From assembly GCA_020445765.1 (NCBI GenBank), contig JAGRFY010000034.1, forward strand, positions 1 to 53,380: 53,380 bases of DNA, written 5' to 3'. Every line of letters begins with the position of its first letter. Position 1 is the first letter of the stretch. Shown in pieces: positions 30,128-38,857 of this stretch. The DNA is from Rhodocyclaceae bacterium (GTDB taxonomy: Bacteria; Pseudomonadota; Gammaproteobacteria; Burkholderiales; Rhodocyclaceae). Both the position numbers and the translations under genes were made by a program. The notes under the pieces are model-generated. The model had not been told where the DNA came from, searched no databases, and saw only the letters and a program-made list of their open reading frames with translations.

Positions 30128-32707
30128 ATGAAGATTCCCGGAACGAAAACCATTCGCGGCGTGCTGCTGATCGCCGCCGTGCTGTTCTCCAGCGTGATCG
30201 TCGCGACCACGCATTTCGCCGTTTCCTATCTGTTCGAACGATCCCTGCGCAAGGAAGCGCTGGCCGACGCCGCCAGTTTCGCCGAGATCACCTTCAAGTC
30301 GATGTTCCAGCTGATGAGGACCGGCTGGAGCCGCCAGCAGCTGGAGGGCTTCATCGCTGCCGTCCAGTCCTCAGTGCATGAAACCCGGCGTCAGATCGAT
30401 ATTTTCCGCGGCAATCGCGCATCGGTGCTGTTCGGCGAGATTCCGCAAAAGGACCCCGACGATGCCATCGAGCAGGTGTTCCGCGAGGGGCGTTCGCGCA
30501 GCTACGAACAGGATGGTCACGTACGCTACCTCTACGCCCTGAAGGCGCAGGAGGTATGCCAGGGCTGTCACACCAACGTCGAGATCGGCGACGTGCTCGG
30601 GGTGATCGACGTACACCAGAATATCGCGCCGGTGCTCGAGGCCCACGAGCGCACCTTTGCGATATCGATGATTCCACTGGCGCCGGTCGCGATTCTGGCC
30701 ACCATGCTGATGGTCATCTTCATCCGTCGACGCTTCGACGGCGCGATCGTCGAGCTCGCCGGCAGCATCCGTTCGGTGAACCGGCTGGCCGACCTGCGCA
30801 GGCTCGAAGACAGTCCACCGAGTCTCGGCTTCGCCGAATTCGACCCGGTCTCGCGCGAAATCGGCGAGCTCACCAGCCGCGTTCGCAGCATCGCCGTGGA
30901 CAAGGACATGCTCGAGTTCGAGATCCGTCTGCTCGAGAAGTTCGTGCTGACCTCGGACGTCATCCGCGACTGGCGGGACTACGTGATCCGCCTGCTGCTC
31001 GACATCGACGGCGTGATGCCCGCCTATGCCCTGTTCTCGATCTTCAAGACCGGTGACGACGCCTTCGATCTCGAAGTGTTCTGGCGCTACGCGCCGAGCG
31101 ACGAGATGAAGGAGGACTTCGAGCGGCGCCTGCGCGACGAACTGAAGCGTACCGACTACTTCGACGCCGGCTACGCGATGCGGGTCAACCATCACGTCGC
31201 GGACCACGGCCAGCCGATGCCGGACATCGCCGGCGACGCCGTGGCGCTGCAGAGCAAGTCGCTGCTGGTGGACTCGCCGCGCATCGGCGGCATCGTCGGC
31301 ATCGGCATGGAGGCGCAGGGCGACGTCGAACCGACCCACGTGCTGGTCATCGAGAGCGTGTTGTCGACGCTGCTCAACGTGGTCGGCTCGGTCAAGGCGA
31401 TCGACCGCTACACCAAGGACCTGGAGTACTACGCGACCCGCGATCCGCTGACCAACTTCTACAACCAGCGGGTCTTCTGGGAGATCGTCGAGAACGAAAT
31501 CCACCGCTCCGCCCGCCACAACTACGCATTCGCGCTGCTGGTGATCGACGTGGACGGCTTCAAGACGATCAACGATCGCTACGGCCACGGCTTCGGCGAC
31601 AGCTTCCTGCAGTGCTTCGCCGAAACGCTGCGCGGCGCGATCCGCGAGGACGACATGCCGGCGCGCTACGGCGGCGACGAATTCGTCGTGATCCTGCCAG
31701 AGACCGATCTGGCCGGCGCCGAGGAGGTCGCGCGCCGGGTCGCGGCGACCATCGGCGACATGTCGGTCGATGCACCGGACGCCAGCTCGCTGCGCTGTAC
31801 CGCTTCGATCGGCATCGGCTGTTATCCGGCCCATGCCACGGTGGGCAAGGACCTGTTCATGTTCGCCGACAGCATGATGTACCGGGCCAAGGCCAGCAGC
31901 GGAACGGCGATCGCGGTCCCCACCGAACAGGATGTCGTCGAGATCTTCAAGAAGCTCGGCGAGAAGAGCATGATGATCCTGCAGGCGGTGGACAATCGTG
32001 CGGTGGTGCCGTATTTCCAGCCGATCGTCAGCACCCGCGACGGCTCGGTCGAGGCAATGGAGGTACTGTCGCGCATCAGTCTGGCCGGTGGCGAGCACGT
32101 GCTGGCCGAGGAATACGTCGCGGCTGCCGAACGCATGGGCGTGATGCACAAGCTCGACTACATGCTGATGGAGCAGGCGCTCGACACCATCGAGAGCAGC
32201 GGCTACCGCGGCGTGATCTTCCTCAACCTGTCGCCGCGGGCGCTGCAGCTCGAGGACTTCGTCACCGAGATCCGCAGCATCGCCGACGACTTTGGCGTCG
32301 ATCCCACGCGCATCGTGCTGGAGATCGCCGAGCGCGAGACGATGCGCAACATGTCGGTGCTCGAACGCTTCGTCGCGCGCCTGCACGGCGAGGGTTTCAA
32401 GCTCGCGATCGACAACTTCGGCTCGGGCTTCTCCTCGTTCCACTATGTCAAGCGCCTGCCGATCGACTATCTGAAGATCGAGGGTGGCTACATCCTCGGC
32501 ATGCGCGCCAACGAGAAGGACCGCGCGCTGGTGCGCAGCATCGCCGCGCTGGCCAGCGATCTCGGCATCCGCACGATTGCCGAGCATGTCGAGGACGAAC
32601 TGGTCATGGCCCAGGTGGTGGCCCAGGGCATCGACCTGGCACAGGGCTACCACGTCATGCGGCCGACCGCCGACATCGCCGCGGCGCTCGCGCCCCGAAC
32701 CGCCTGA
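30128..32707 (+). CDS. heme-motif sensor GGDEF-EAL cyclic-di-GMP protein
   Basis: An 859-residue inner-membrane signalling protein. TM1 (about 11-33), a periplasmic domain (34-178) with a c-type heme motif CQGCH at 144-148, TM2 (179-199), HAMP-like region (200-260), a GAF-like domain (270-425), GGDEF (about 430-595) and EAL (about 615-850). The cyclase motif GGDEF (515-519) is intact, with the inhibitory I-site REDD at 506-509. The phosphodiesterase motif reads EVLSR (645-649); the metal-site pair is Asp762 and Asn763 (IDN) instead of D-D. The heme motif lies on the periplasmic side, so redox, oxygen or NO sensing is plausible. ATG has a weak ribosome-binding site. Confidence 0.88.
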   Translation: MKIPGTKTIRGVLLIAAVLFSSVIVATTHFAVSYLFERSLRKEALADAASFAEITFKSMFQLMRTGWSRQQLEGFIAAVQSSVHETRRQIDIFRGNRASVLFGEIPQKDPDDAIEQVFREGRSRSYEQDGHVRYLYALKAQEVCQGCHTNVEIGDVLGVIDVHQNIAPVLEAHERTFAISMIPLAPVAILATMLMVIFIRRRFDGAIVELAGSIRSVNRLADLRRLEDSPPSLGFAEFDPVSREIGELTSRVRSIAVDKDMLEFEIRLLEKFVLTSDVIRDWRDYVIRLLLDIDGVMPAYALFSIFKTGDDAFDLEVFWRYAPSDEMKEDFERRLRDELKRTDYFDAGYAMRVNHHVADHGQPMPDIAGDAVALQSKSLLVDSPRIGGIVGIGMEAQGDVEPTHVLVIESVLSTLLNVVGSVKAIDRYTKDLEYYATRDPLTNFYNQRVFWEIVENEIHRSARHNYAFALLVIDVDGFKTINDRYGHGFGDSFLQCFAETLRGAIREDDMPARYGGDEFVVILPETDLAGAEEVARRVAATIGDMSVDAPDASSLRCTASIGIGCYPAHATVGKDLFMFADSMMYRAKASSGTAIAVPTEQDVVEIFKKLGEKSMMILQAVDNRAVVPYFQPIVSTRDGSVEAMEVLSRISLAGGEHVLAEEYVAAAERMGVMHKLDYMLMEQALDTIESSGYRGVIFLNLSPRALQLEDFVTEIRSIADDFGVDPTRIVLEIAERETMRNMSVLERFVARLHGEGFKLAIDNFGSGFSSFHYVKRLPIDYLKIEGGYILGMRANEKDRALVRSIAALASDLGIRTIAEHVEDELVMAQVVAQGIDLAQGYHVMRPTADIAAALAPRTA

Positions 32708-36563: not shown

Positions 36564-37088
36564 ATGTCCAAATTGCCAATCCGCACCGGCCAGCTCGCAT
36601 TGATCGGCCGAATCTCGCTACTGTTCGCCGTGCTGGCGATCGCCGGCCTGGTCGGCGTGCTGTTGCTGGCGCGCCCGGTGGACGGCGACTACGTCGCAAT
36701 GATCCAGACCCTAAGCGCCAGCCGCGCCCAGTTGCCCGGGCTGATGGCCGTCGGCGGCCTGCTGCTGGTGCTCGGCACGGCACTGACTACCTGGCTGATC
36801 GCGCTCTACAGCAGCTTCCGGGTGGCCGGCCCGCTGTATCGCTTCTGCATCGACCTGGAGCATGGCATTCGCGAGGGACAGGTGCCGCGCATCCGGGTGC
36901 GGGCAAGCGATGCCGCGCAGGATGACGCACGTTACCTCGAGGAGACGGTCAGCGGGCTCTACCTTCTTCAGGACGAGATCGCCACCGCGGCGGACGAGGC
37001 CCTCCGCCACCTGCGCGACGGGTCGGCCGAGGCCGCCGATACCGAAGGCCAGCGTCTGCTCCGCCTGACCGACGCCTGCCAGCTATGA
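36564..37088 (+). CDS. two-TM membrane protein with HAMP-like tail
   Basis: A 174-residue inner-membrane protein. TM1 is about residues 11-37, a short periplasmic loop follows, TM2 is about 58-82, and the C-terminal 90 residues are cytoplasmic. The tail starts YSSFRVAGPLYRFCIDLEH, reminiscent of the beginning of a HAMP domain, and continues as an acidic helix. There is no methyl-accepting, kinase or cyclase output domain. It overlaps the heptaheme gene by ATGA. Its role, perhaps anchoring or signal relay for the cytochrome, is inferred from context only. Confidence 0.7.
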   Translation: MSKLPIRTGQLALIGRISLLFAVLAIAGLVGVLLLARPVDGDYVAMIQTLSASRAQLPGLMAVGGLLLVLGTALTTWLIALYSSFRVAGPLYRFCIDLEHGIREGQVPRIRVRASDAAQDDARYLEETVSGLYLLQDEIATAADEALRHLRDGSAEAADTEGQRLLRLTDACQL

Positions 37089-37861
37089 CCGCCGCGCGCC
37101 ACCTCGCCGCAGCCTGCCTGCTCGGCTTCCTGACATTGCTGGTCACGGCCGACATGCGACCGGCGGACCCACTGTCCGGCAACGCTTGCGCTTCCTGCCA
37201 CGTCAGTTCCGGCGCGGTCGAGCCTGAAACCGCCCGGGTGCTCCACGCCAGCCAGGAGAAGCTGTGCGGCGACTGTCACCCTCGCGCTGCGGTGGCCAGC
37301 CACCCGACCGGGATCCGTCCGAGCATGCAGGCAGCGGCCGACTACCCGCTCGACTGGAAGGGCGAACTCACTTGCAGCTCATGCCACGACGTCCATGGCG
37401 ACAGCCATGGGCGCCTGCGCGGCGACAAGCGGCGCCGCGAGTTCTGCGTGTCCTGCCATCCCGCCAGCTTCTTCGAGCAAATGGCCGACGGCGGCCGCTC
37501 GCTGGCAGTCTCCGGCCACCTCGACTCGATCGGCCTGGCCGGGGAGCCGACCCTGCTCGACCCCTACACCGCCCAATGCATGGACTGCCACGGCGAGCGG
37601 GGCGACGCCCGGGTCGAAGTGACCACCGCCGCCAACAGCCGCCACAGCGGCAGCGGCGTCAACCACCCGGTCGGCGTCGATTACGCCAAGGCCAGCGGCT
37701 TCGGCGGCTTCCGCGATCCCGCAGCGCTCGACCGTGGCATCGAGTTGCCCGGCGGCCTCGTCAGTTGCATTTCATGCCATAGCGGCTATAGCGGACGTCA
37801 CGGCGCGGTCCGCCAGACCGCGCTCGGCAGAAGCCTGTGCCTGGAGTGCCACGACCTATGA
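37085..37861 (+). CDS. exported heptaheme c-type cytochrome
   Basis: A 258-residue secreted protein with an N-terminal signal peptide (about residues 1-22) and seven CxxCH heme-binding motifs: CASCH 35-39, CGDCH 61-65, CSSCH 97-101, CVSCH 121-125, CMDCH 165-169, CISCH 228-232 and CLECH 252-256. Several additional His residues could supply sixth ligands. No catalytic CxxCK motif of NrfA is present, so electron transfer is more likely than nitrite reduction. It overlaps both neighbours by ATGA, so three genes form one tightly coupled unit. The family is not recognised. Confidence 0.9.
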   Translation: MTAARHLAAACLLGFLTLLVTADMRPADPLSGNACASCHVSSGAVEPETARVLHASQEKLCGDCHPRAAVASHPTGIRPSMQAAADYPLDWKGELTCSSCHDVHGDSHGRLRGDKRRREFCVSCHPASFFEQMADGGRSLAVSGHLDSIGLAGEPTLLDPYTAQCMDCHGERGDARVEVTTAANSRHSGSGVNHPVGVDYAKASGFGGFRDPAALDRGIELPGGLVSCISCHSGYSGRHGAVRQTALGRSLCLECHDL

Positions 37862-38421
37862 GCGCGAAAGCAGGACATTCCCATCGCCGCCGACGGATCT
37901 ACGTCGACGGCCAGTTGCAGGGGCGTCTGGTGGCTGCCCTGGTGCTGCTCGAGGCCGGCCTGCTGGTGCTCGCCTGCCTCTACCTCTACCACGCCTTCGG
38001 CGAAATCATCGACGAATCGCTCTACGTCATCCACGCGGTGGACCGCAGGCCCTTGCTGCCCCGGCTCGCGGCAGCCCTGGGCTGGACCGTGCTGGTGTGC
38101 GCCCTGGTCAACACCGCTGCACTGGTGGTCGCCGACGCGATCTGGTCGTCCCATGTGCGCAAGGTGCTGGCCACCTTGCGTGCCCGCCTGGCAAGCGTCC
38201 GCGCGCTGGACCTGCGGCCGCGGCCCGCCGAGGGCAAGCCGGCCCATCGCCTGCTCGCGTTGACCGAACGATGGATCGCCAGCGAACGACAGCGCCTGGT
38301 GGCCGCCCGCGAGGCCGCCACCGGACTGATCTCGGCATCCGAGCCCGGTGCCGAAACCCGGGAATCGCTCGAATCGGCCCTGCGCGCATTGCGACGTGGC
38401 CGTCGGGCCGATCGAAACTGA
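37858..38421 (+). CDS. second two-TM membrane protein of the heptaheme operon
   Basis: A 187-residue inner-membrane protein with a basic cytoplasmic N-terminus (HSHRRRRIYVDG), TM1 about 24-45, a periplasmic loop (46-72), TM2 about 73-95, and an arginine-rich cytoplasmic helical tail (96-187) resembling a HAMP linker without any output domain. Its topology mirrors that of the protein at 36564-37088, but the sequences are not obviously homologous. It overlaps the heptaheme stop by ATGA. A role in docking or sensing the cytochrome's redox state is inferred. Confidence 0.7.
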   Translation: MSAKAGHSHRRRRIYVDGQLQGRLVAALVLLEAGLLVLACLYLYHAFGEIIDESLYVIHAVDRRPLLPRLAAALGWTVLVCALVNTAALVVADAIWSSHVRKVLATLRARLASVRALDLRPRPAEGKPAHRLLALTERWIASERQRLVAAREAATGLISASEPGAETRESLESALRALRRGRRADRN

Positions 38422-38443: not shown

Positions 38444-38857
38444 ATGTTGATCATGGAATGGAACCCAGCCCTGGAAGTGGGCATCGACGAAATGGATTCG
38501 GACCACCGGACGCTGTTCGAACTGCTGGTCCGCGTTCAGGACGCCAGCGACGCCGACGATCGCACCGAGGCGATGGCCGTCCTGAAGGAACTGGCCGATT
38601 ACACCGAATGGCATTTCGCACGTGAAGAGGCCCTGATGGCCCGCCATGCCTACGAATTCACTGCCGAACACCGGGAGGAGCACCAGCGGCTGGCCCGTCA
38701 GGTGGGACACATGATGACCGACCTCGATCACGGACACATCGTGCCCCACGATGTCGCCACCTTCCTTCAGCGCTGGCTGATGGGACACATCGCCGGCGCC
38801 GACCGCCACGTCGGCGAAGCGATCGCTCGCTCCCGCCAGAAGGCCACGGCCGGCTGA
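38444..38857 (+). CDS. bacteriohemerythrin
   Basis: A 137-residue four-helix di-iron O2-binding protein. All seven canonical ligands are visible: His21, His57, Glu61, His76, His80, His115 and Asp120. The start MEWNPALEVGI is typical. It lies 22 nt after the two-TM protein gene, so it may be the fourth gene of the heptaheme operon. Bacteriohemerythrins bind oxygen (or NO) and are often found with chemotaxis or c-di-GMP systems, which fits the redox theme here. Confidence 0.95.
   Translation: MLIMEWNPALEVGIDEMDSDHRTLFELLVRVQDASDADDRTEAMAVLKELADYTEWHFAREEALMARHAYEFTAEHREEHQRLARQVGHMMTDLDHGHIVPHDVATFLQRWLMGHIAGADRHVGEAIARSRQKATAG

Follow-up and report, generated by a model that had tools for sequence, protein, structure and literature searches.

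Quinol dehydrogenases of the NapC/NrfH/CymA type are membrane-attached multiheme proteins that transfer electrons at the periplasmic face, and the archaeal Af1503 is a TM-HAMP protein without an output domain. Clusters for extracellular electron transfer are reportedly the subject of the primary papers Eddie 2022 (Uet) and Szeinbaum 2020. The undecaheme electron transfer (Uet) pathway is described from Tenderiales and Gallionella in the passages of PMC10734462 that concern it, with tetraheme, PPIase, porin, triheme, NHL, and undecaheme genes as its parts. The passages of PMC10734462, PMC5371394, and PMC13264449 state neither an inner-membrane connection of Uet/OmcE-type systems nor a means by which the host senses the outside potential.

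Here, we analyse a locus of three genes (A, B, and C, jointly ABC) that encode a heptaheme cytochrome between two small membrane proteins. It lies in a stretch of 53,380 nucleotides, hereafter the window, from contig JAGRFY010000034.1 of a Rhodocyclaceae bacterium (GCA_020445765.1). Clusters associated with ABC resemble Uet in that they, too, have an OmcE-like tetraheme cytochrome, a PPIase, a barrel-like protein, a triheme c7, an NHL protein, and an 11-heme cytochrome, but the description of UetA-J in the passages of PMC10734462 names no heptaheme protein, no TM-HAMP-like proteins, and no two-component cassette, and the likeness is one of parts. Like the solo TM-HAMP proteins ("M" proteins), A and C have two TM helices, a HAMP-like cytoplasmic part, and no output domain; unlike them, they look like a diverged pair and are tied genetically to a multiheme cytochrome, and A fails the Pfam HAMP model. 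Sensors of the PF21563 (Mcp40H-20) type also have a covalent heme in a HAMP-coupled protein, and locus L027 has a GGDEF protein of this kind next to ABC; their one CxxCH is in the same chain as the transducer, whereas ABC has seven on a separate protein. B also differs from NapC/NrfH/CymA in coming with two separate heme-free membrane proteins. The structure PDB 7tfs, which we take to be the OmcE filament, is matched by the 4-heme gene that follows ABC in L026 (2.4e-24), and by B itself over one CxxCH pair only.

Three overlapping genes around a heptaheme cytochrome

The first-pass annotation of this DNA had described three genes overlapping by ATGA, with an exported seven-CxxCH cytochrome in the middle. 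The open reading frames, the overlaps (A/B at 37085-37088 and B/C at 37858-37861), and the motif count are as it stated (Table 1). Comparison with four congeners indicates purifying selection on all three genes, with dN/dS values of 0.26-0.41 for A, 0.19-0.30 for B, and 0.23-0.41 for C. The trio is preceded by gshB and followed by a bacteriohemerythrin gene (Pfam/NCBIfam), after which comes a gene that is presumably argC. The bacteriohemerythrin gene is also found 3' of C in four congeners and is a possible fourth gene of the operon in the window's genus. Elsewhere, a second hemerythrin (Pfam 5.2e-9, L122:8295-8831) directly precedes A in Sedimenticola hydrogenitrophicus; another candidate hemerythrin (L053:7739-8260) had no Pfam match and was rejected. 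No known RNA element reached the Rfam gathering score in the window, and matches upstream of A were at chance level.

Table 1. Features of the window in and around ABC.
Feature	Position	Strand	Description
Gene A	36564..37088	+	174-aa two-TM protein; R-x-A-G-P-L HAMP-like segment after TM2; no output domain
Gene A TM1, about residues 16-36	36609..36671	+	Inferred from a hydrophobic stretch in the sequence
Gene A TM2 and HAMP-like segment, about residues 60-140	36741..36983	+	hhalign against the mini-HAMP family, probability 99.2
Gene B	37085..37861	+	258-aa heptaheme c-type cytochrome; export signal by reading of the sequence
Heme-binding region of B	37187..37852	+	CxxCH residue positions converted to window coordinates
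CxxCH codon starts in B	37187, 37265, 37373, 37445, 37577, 37766, 37838		
Gene C	37858..38421	+	187-aa two-TM protein; cytoplasmic part helix-connector-helix; ATG at 37858
Bacteriohemerythrin gene	38444..38857	+	22 bp 3' of C; NCBIfam NF033749 5.5e-33
GGDEF-EAL protein	30128..32707	+	859 aa, one CxxCH; 3.9 kb upstream of the trio

The motifs of B are at residues 35, 61, 97, 121, 165, 228, and 252 and can be read as three pairs and a single one. Shuffling the protein 20,000 times gave a mean of 0.05 CxxCH and a maximum of 3, against seven observed, and B is the only one of the 322 ORFs of the window (60 aa or more) with at least two of them. It belongs to the Pfam family Paired_CXXCH_1 (4.8e-17; 61.8 bits against a cut-off of 20.6) and also exceeds the Pfam cut-offs of Cytochrom_c3_2 and Cytochrome_C7. 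The NapC/NirT family has no Pfam match on B, and the NrfH model of NCBIfam covers part of it below the level of family membership (2.1e-5; 24.6 of 134.2 bits). No solved structure is close, the matches being limited to a CxxCH pair, and the weak fold model of B (pLDDT 72) has no significant match in the PDB. The alignment of 47 B sequences contains 39 invariant columns, among them the seven CxxCH and six more histidines, at positions 73, 104, 145, 187, 194, and 239; M133 is kept in 46 of the 47. A histidine at most 12 residues before the first CxxCH is present in 41/47 sequences and missing from the window's genus (five sequences) and from L023, so that at least one of the possible distal ligands varies.

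ABC is conserved as a unit

We scanned a species-level genome collection with the B alignment and obtained 48 loci. The order A-B-C is found in 44 of them, and 45 of the 48 B proteins have exactly seven CxxCH. The records are named Oxalobacteraceae, Rhodoferax, Gallionellaceae, Sedimenticola, Thiohalomonas, Motiliproteus, and Magnetococcales, among others. Four loci lack the full trio: L049 and L057 have B only, the contig of L060 ends inside B, and L061 (Myxococcota) encodes a different protein with 12 CxxCH. The last two were kept out of the alignment and scored as misses. The broken B of L059 and the C of L032, cut by a contig end, were excluded from alignments A6 and A7, and both loci are still within the 44. 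In L059 (5884-6678), B is split into two pieces with 3 and 2 motifs, and A and C are open. The overlaps recur between A and B in 35/44 loci and, by four bases, between B and C in 27/44, counts that depend on start codons chosen by a script in the relatives.

The same arrangement is found in other samples, although the species-level, relatives, phylum, regulator, and OmcE-like genome sets overlap in species. We searched 61 relatives, the window's own genome included, with B alone (B-negative therefore means without a B match). B is present in six, namely five of the six genomes of the genus and G022 from another genus, each time between A and C. The A profile gave 38 matches in a phylum sample of 398 genomes. 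Every one of the 18 strong matches (E ≤ 2.5e-32), among them that of the window's own genome, belongs to a full trio in the order A-B-C whose B has seven motifs; the weaker ones examined (L107-L118) comprise four full-length kinases and eight mini-HAMP-like proteins that stand alone. Distances of A, B, and C correlate over 44 sets (r of 0.84-0.88, against at most 0.17 in shuffles), which shared phylogeny alone could also produce. The order in 44/48 loci and in 18/18 strong phylum matches bears out the tight coupling noted in the first-pass annotation, the trio being one conserved unit. Separation of the genes in other genomes, which would have spoken against the earlier proposal, was not seen, except that B occurs alone in L049, in L057, and on a plasmid of Geoalkalibacter subterraneus. 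The plasmid gene (L143:11983-12771) encodes a seven-motif relative of B with 30% identity near PilZ/EAL genes, with no A or C match.

Smaller related proteins were also seen. A four-heme homologue of the N-terminal half of B accompanied by one mini-HAMP protein occurs in 2 of the 369 genomes of a class sample, and these pairs (L066/L088 and L067/L087) possibly represent the module in a simpler version. Solo TM-HAMP-like mini-proteins without an output domain are present in several proteobacterial genomes (L068-L075, L107-L112, L114, L116). As partners of cytochromes they were rejected: no ORF with at least two CxxCH lies beside L068-L075 in the stretches covered (loci L078-L085), and the short loci L107-L112, L114, and L116 contain no B match.

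A and C are remote relatives of TM-HAMP proteins

The distribution of charged residues, and for C also the helices predicted by AlphaFold2, suggest that A and C are both N-in/C-in hairpins of two TM helices with a short periplasmic loop, which is at odds with the mirrored topology that the first-pass annotation had seen in them. The HAMP-like tails that it gave them stand as remote homology. In hhalign comparisons with the mini-HAMP family of small TM-HAMP proteins, A reaches a probability of 99.2 and C one of 96.7, and of the 8 members of this family 7 have a Pfam HAMP match with E ≤ 0.1, the best one at 7.6e-7. Profile comparison therefore relates both A and C to accepted HAMP proteins. The tails do not stand as members of the Pfam model (PF00672), which matches 0/46 A proteins at E ≤ 0.1 and does not match the C of the window. 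The A profile overlies the HAMP region in all four histidine kinases examined, which were themselves found by that profile, and in one of them HAMP falls below the Pfam cut-off. Compared directly, A and C show no significant similarity (hhalign probability 9). As had been claimed, neither protein has an output domain in Pfam or NCBIfam, and neither classes as a chemoreceptor or sensor kinase. Neither falls into a Pfam or NCBIfam family at curated cut-offs; the best NCBIfam match of C, HemJ (0.043; 13.9 of 138 bits), is at chance level. A match of the window proteins to a cytochrome-maturation or quinol-oxidising family, which would have spoken against the earlier proposal, was likewise absent at curated cut-offs. 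Judged by their sequences, A and C look like a diverged output-less pair, both kin of small TM-HAMP proteins.

Conservation is strong in defined parts of both proteins. The residues R86, A88, G89, P90, and L91 of A are kept in 43-46 of 46 sequences. The AlphaFold2 model of C (pLDDT 87) has helices at 66-115, the membrane helix, and at 131-159, with a 15-residue connector, and in this model C has the HAMP order of a TM helix running into helix-connector-helix. Foldseek found no significant PDB match for this all-helical model. Conserved residues of C include E32 in TM1 and N85 in TM2 (each in 44/45 proteins), H59 in the periplasmic loop, and W96, and the cytoplasmic part is conserved as well (D118, H130, W139, E143). 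In the C of L056, E32 and N85 change jointly, to Q and E, which suggests that the two residues are in contact. No conserved histidine lies within the membrane helices of A or C.

Co-inheritance with a two-component cassette

What is new relative to the first-pass annotation is that ABC is co-inherited with an NtrC-type cassette and with OmcE/Uet-type genes. The cassette consists of a histidine kinase, an NtrC-type regulator, and two propeller proteins, and adjoins ABC in 7 of 46 loci (L021, L027, L028, L032, L041, L044, L053), six of which also have a Sel1 protein. In the window's own genome, the complete cassette and a small cytochrome c are on contig C210. We searched for regulator orthologues at E ≤ 1e-115; the genomes of L032, L060, and L061 were left out of this search and of that for OmcE-like genes. 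The regulator is present in 7/7 genomes of a first set, six of which had been picked for adjacency to ABC, and in 24 of the 38 genomes of a second set that includes the window's own, leaving 14/38 without it. In the phylum sample, it occurs in 17 of the 18 genomes with ABC, the sole miss being a genome 78% complete, versus 4 of the 380 others (Fisher p of 3e-25, computed ignoring phylogeny). Counted by family, the 18 genomes with ABC represent 10 families, all with the regulator, and one further family has the regulator only. The corresponding counts among the relatives are 6/6 with B versus 3/55 without. The B profile found no B in seven regulator-positive genomes without ABC, nor in G035, and searches of the congener G004 found neither B nor the regulator nor OmcE-like genes.

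The scanned cassette kinases, those of the own genome and of L119, carry a HAMP domain themselves and, as read from the sequence, a membrane sensor, and thus need not depend on ABC. In three betaproteobacterial loci (L047, L055, L058), A is preceded at roughly 100-150 bp by a near-perfect sigma-54 promoter, for which we assumed the type TGGCA-N6-TTGCT with its consensus and weights. ABC can therefore be a target, and such a promoter is as compatible with autoregulation as with a regulated gene. General control of ABC by sigma-54 was rejected, with 5/44 upstream regions at p ≤ 0.05 against mononucleotide shuffles and about 2 expected; the window has no such site before A (p of 0.57).

Co-inheritance with extracellular electron-transfer genes

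A four-sequence profile (E ≤ 1e-8) identified OmcE-like cytochromes in 42 of the 45 B-bearing genomes searched (misses in G823, G825, and G833), and in 6/6 B-positive versus 4/55 B-negative relatives. Their genes are within the examined flank in 10/46 loci. A single contig stretch of G801, G802, and G803 holds ABC, the kinase cassette, cytochromes, and NHL-like and OmcE-like proteins, along with a PPIase, a large barrel-like protein, three-motif cytochromes, and an 11-motif protein. To this set G803 adds a ResB-like protein and G801 a CcsA-like protein. Between a CcsA-like gene and the cassette kinase sits a many-TM COX1-like protein with TPRs (L140:4298-6346; 34.3 bits against a Pfam cut-off of 34.8). 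The corresponding Uet-type parts of the window's own genome are on contig C2 (L138), where the OmcE-like protein, the PPIase, and c7 were assigned by profile or Pfam and NHL by BLAST; the barrel reaches only 22.7 of 28.7 bits, and the contig ends within the 11-heme gene, leaving 8 motifs visible.

This genome accordingly contains the Uet parts listed in the passages of PMC10734462, a correspondence by parts and not by comparison with Tenderia sequences. ABC is not a named Uet component in the passages of PMC10734462 and PMC5371394. Among the matches listed, no title or abstract beginning describes the combination A-B-C, which the first-pass annotation had not recognised either; a prior mention, for instance in the primary Uet papers, is possible. 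Co-inheritance and clustering together give good support to the conclusion that ABC belongs to an extracellular electron-transfer system.

Variable neighbours and c-di-GMP signalling genes

The neighbours of ABC vary between loci, and a fixed neighbour as output partner was rejected for this reason. The GGDEF-EAL protein of the window has its single CxxCH near residue 144 and is 49% identical to a full-length paralogue beside the cassette on C210 of the same genome. At the edges of the loci L014, L015, and L017, some 3.9 kb 5' of A, are pieces of relatives with 77-89% identity; L016 stops short of this position. The window protein is a possible signalling partner of ABC. Other neighbours were noted in single groups of loci. 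A FixG/CcoG-like 4Fe-4S gene is directly 3' of C in three Oxalobacteraceae-type loci (L020:2326-3729, L021:7244-8731, L052:7284-8690), as called by Pfam FixG_C in L020 and by BLAST in the other two. In G022 (L141:16803-19828), C is followed by an overlapping frame that reads as a periplasmic binding protein and then by a GGDEF-type protein.

Possible functions of ABC

Because it is a conserved unit that travels with surface electron-transfer genes, the trio is probably a redox sensor or an inner-membrane contact of a surface electron-transfer system. The best single reading, that it is specifically the redox-sensing transducer of such a system, we regard as evenly balanced. Sensing is favoured by the descent of A and C from HAMP proteins, by conservation in the cytoplasmic part of C, and by the tie to the two-component cassette; the seven hemes and the buried E32/N85 leave room for a role in electron transfer. 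A sensor of this kind would be one inner-membrane complex of A, B, and C within an OmcE/Uet-type system. The seven hemes of the exported B would form an electron antenna at the periplasmic face, in redox contact with the small periplasmic cytochromes of the system, and A and C, as diverged descendants of TM-HAMP mini-transducers, would pair as a heterodimer with their HAMP-like helices in the cytoplasm. The electron load of B would shift the helices of A and C, and the quinone pool might perhaps also be sensed, via E32/N85 of C. The output would come from a partner, for which the HAMP-containing histidine kinase and the NtrC-type regulator inherited along with ABC are the likeliest candidates; a GGDEF-EAL protein with heme, like that upstream of the trio, is another. 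In its fullest form, which we put forward tentatively, this would be a split redox receptor: a separate seven-heme antenna serving an output-less HAMP-derived heterodimer, which together would report the filling of the extracellular electron-transfer wiring to the cell and adjust a programme of sigma-54 and c-di-GMP to it. Several points speak against sensing. Co-inheritance gives no direction, and ABC may be a target of the regulator; seven hemes exceed the need of a sensor; the regulator is missing from 14/38 genomes, A fails Pfam HAMP in all 46 proteins, and the neighbours vary.

The main rival, of which we are rather doubtful, is an inner-membrane electron-transfer subunit, and the co-inheritance with OmcE-like cytochromes is in keeping with it. 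B would be the periplasmic wire and A and C a cofactor-free anchor with a quinone site, so that electrons pass between the quinone pool and a Uet-type conduit; the site would be formed by E32 and N85 of C in the membrane, H59 would be near B, and the HAMP-like fold would be scaffold only. The seven CxxCH and six other histidines common to 47/47 B sequences suit such a subunit, as do the near-invariance of E32 and N85 and their paired replacement in L056. So does the make-up of the clusters, whose Pfam-scanned membrane proteins are one ResB-like, one CcsA-like, one COX1-like, and two without a family, with none like NapC/CymA, although the COX1-like protein could be the membrane contact instead. 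The membrane helices of A and C have no conserved histidine, however, their kin are HAMP proteins, and the conserved cytoplasmic residues of C (D118, H130, W139, E143) would be needless in an anchor. Some neighbourhoods point to assembly or maturation, with ABC loading, docking, or quality-checking the periplasmic cytochromes of the system: ABC is beside ccm genes in L026, L029, L030, and L059 and near them in L048, the cassettes of L129, L131, and L133 are a few genes from ccmF, and the ResB-like (G803) and CcsA-like (G801) genes belong to the clusters. We consider this improbable, given that neither A nor C of the window matches a Ccm or thioredoxin family and that a protein with seven hemes needs maturation itself. 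That B is an ordinary periplasmic cytochrome with two unrelated small membrane proteins as neighbours is the least probable reading. The B genes of L049 and L057, which have no A or C match beside them, would agree with it, as would the plasmid relative at 30% identity, but it is strongly disfavoured by an order kept, with gene overlaps, in 44/48 loci across records named Beta- and Gammaproteobacteria and Magnetococcales.

The trio is thus a concrete, deletable candidate for the inner-membrane link of Uet/OmcE-type systems or for their sensing of the outside potential. As a sensor, it would be a case of HAMP helices moved by a multiheme protein that is a chain of its own; as an electron-transfer subunit, it would be one of a signalling fold reused for electron transfer.
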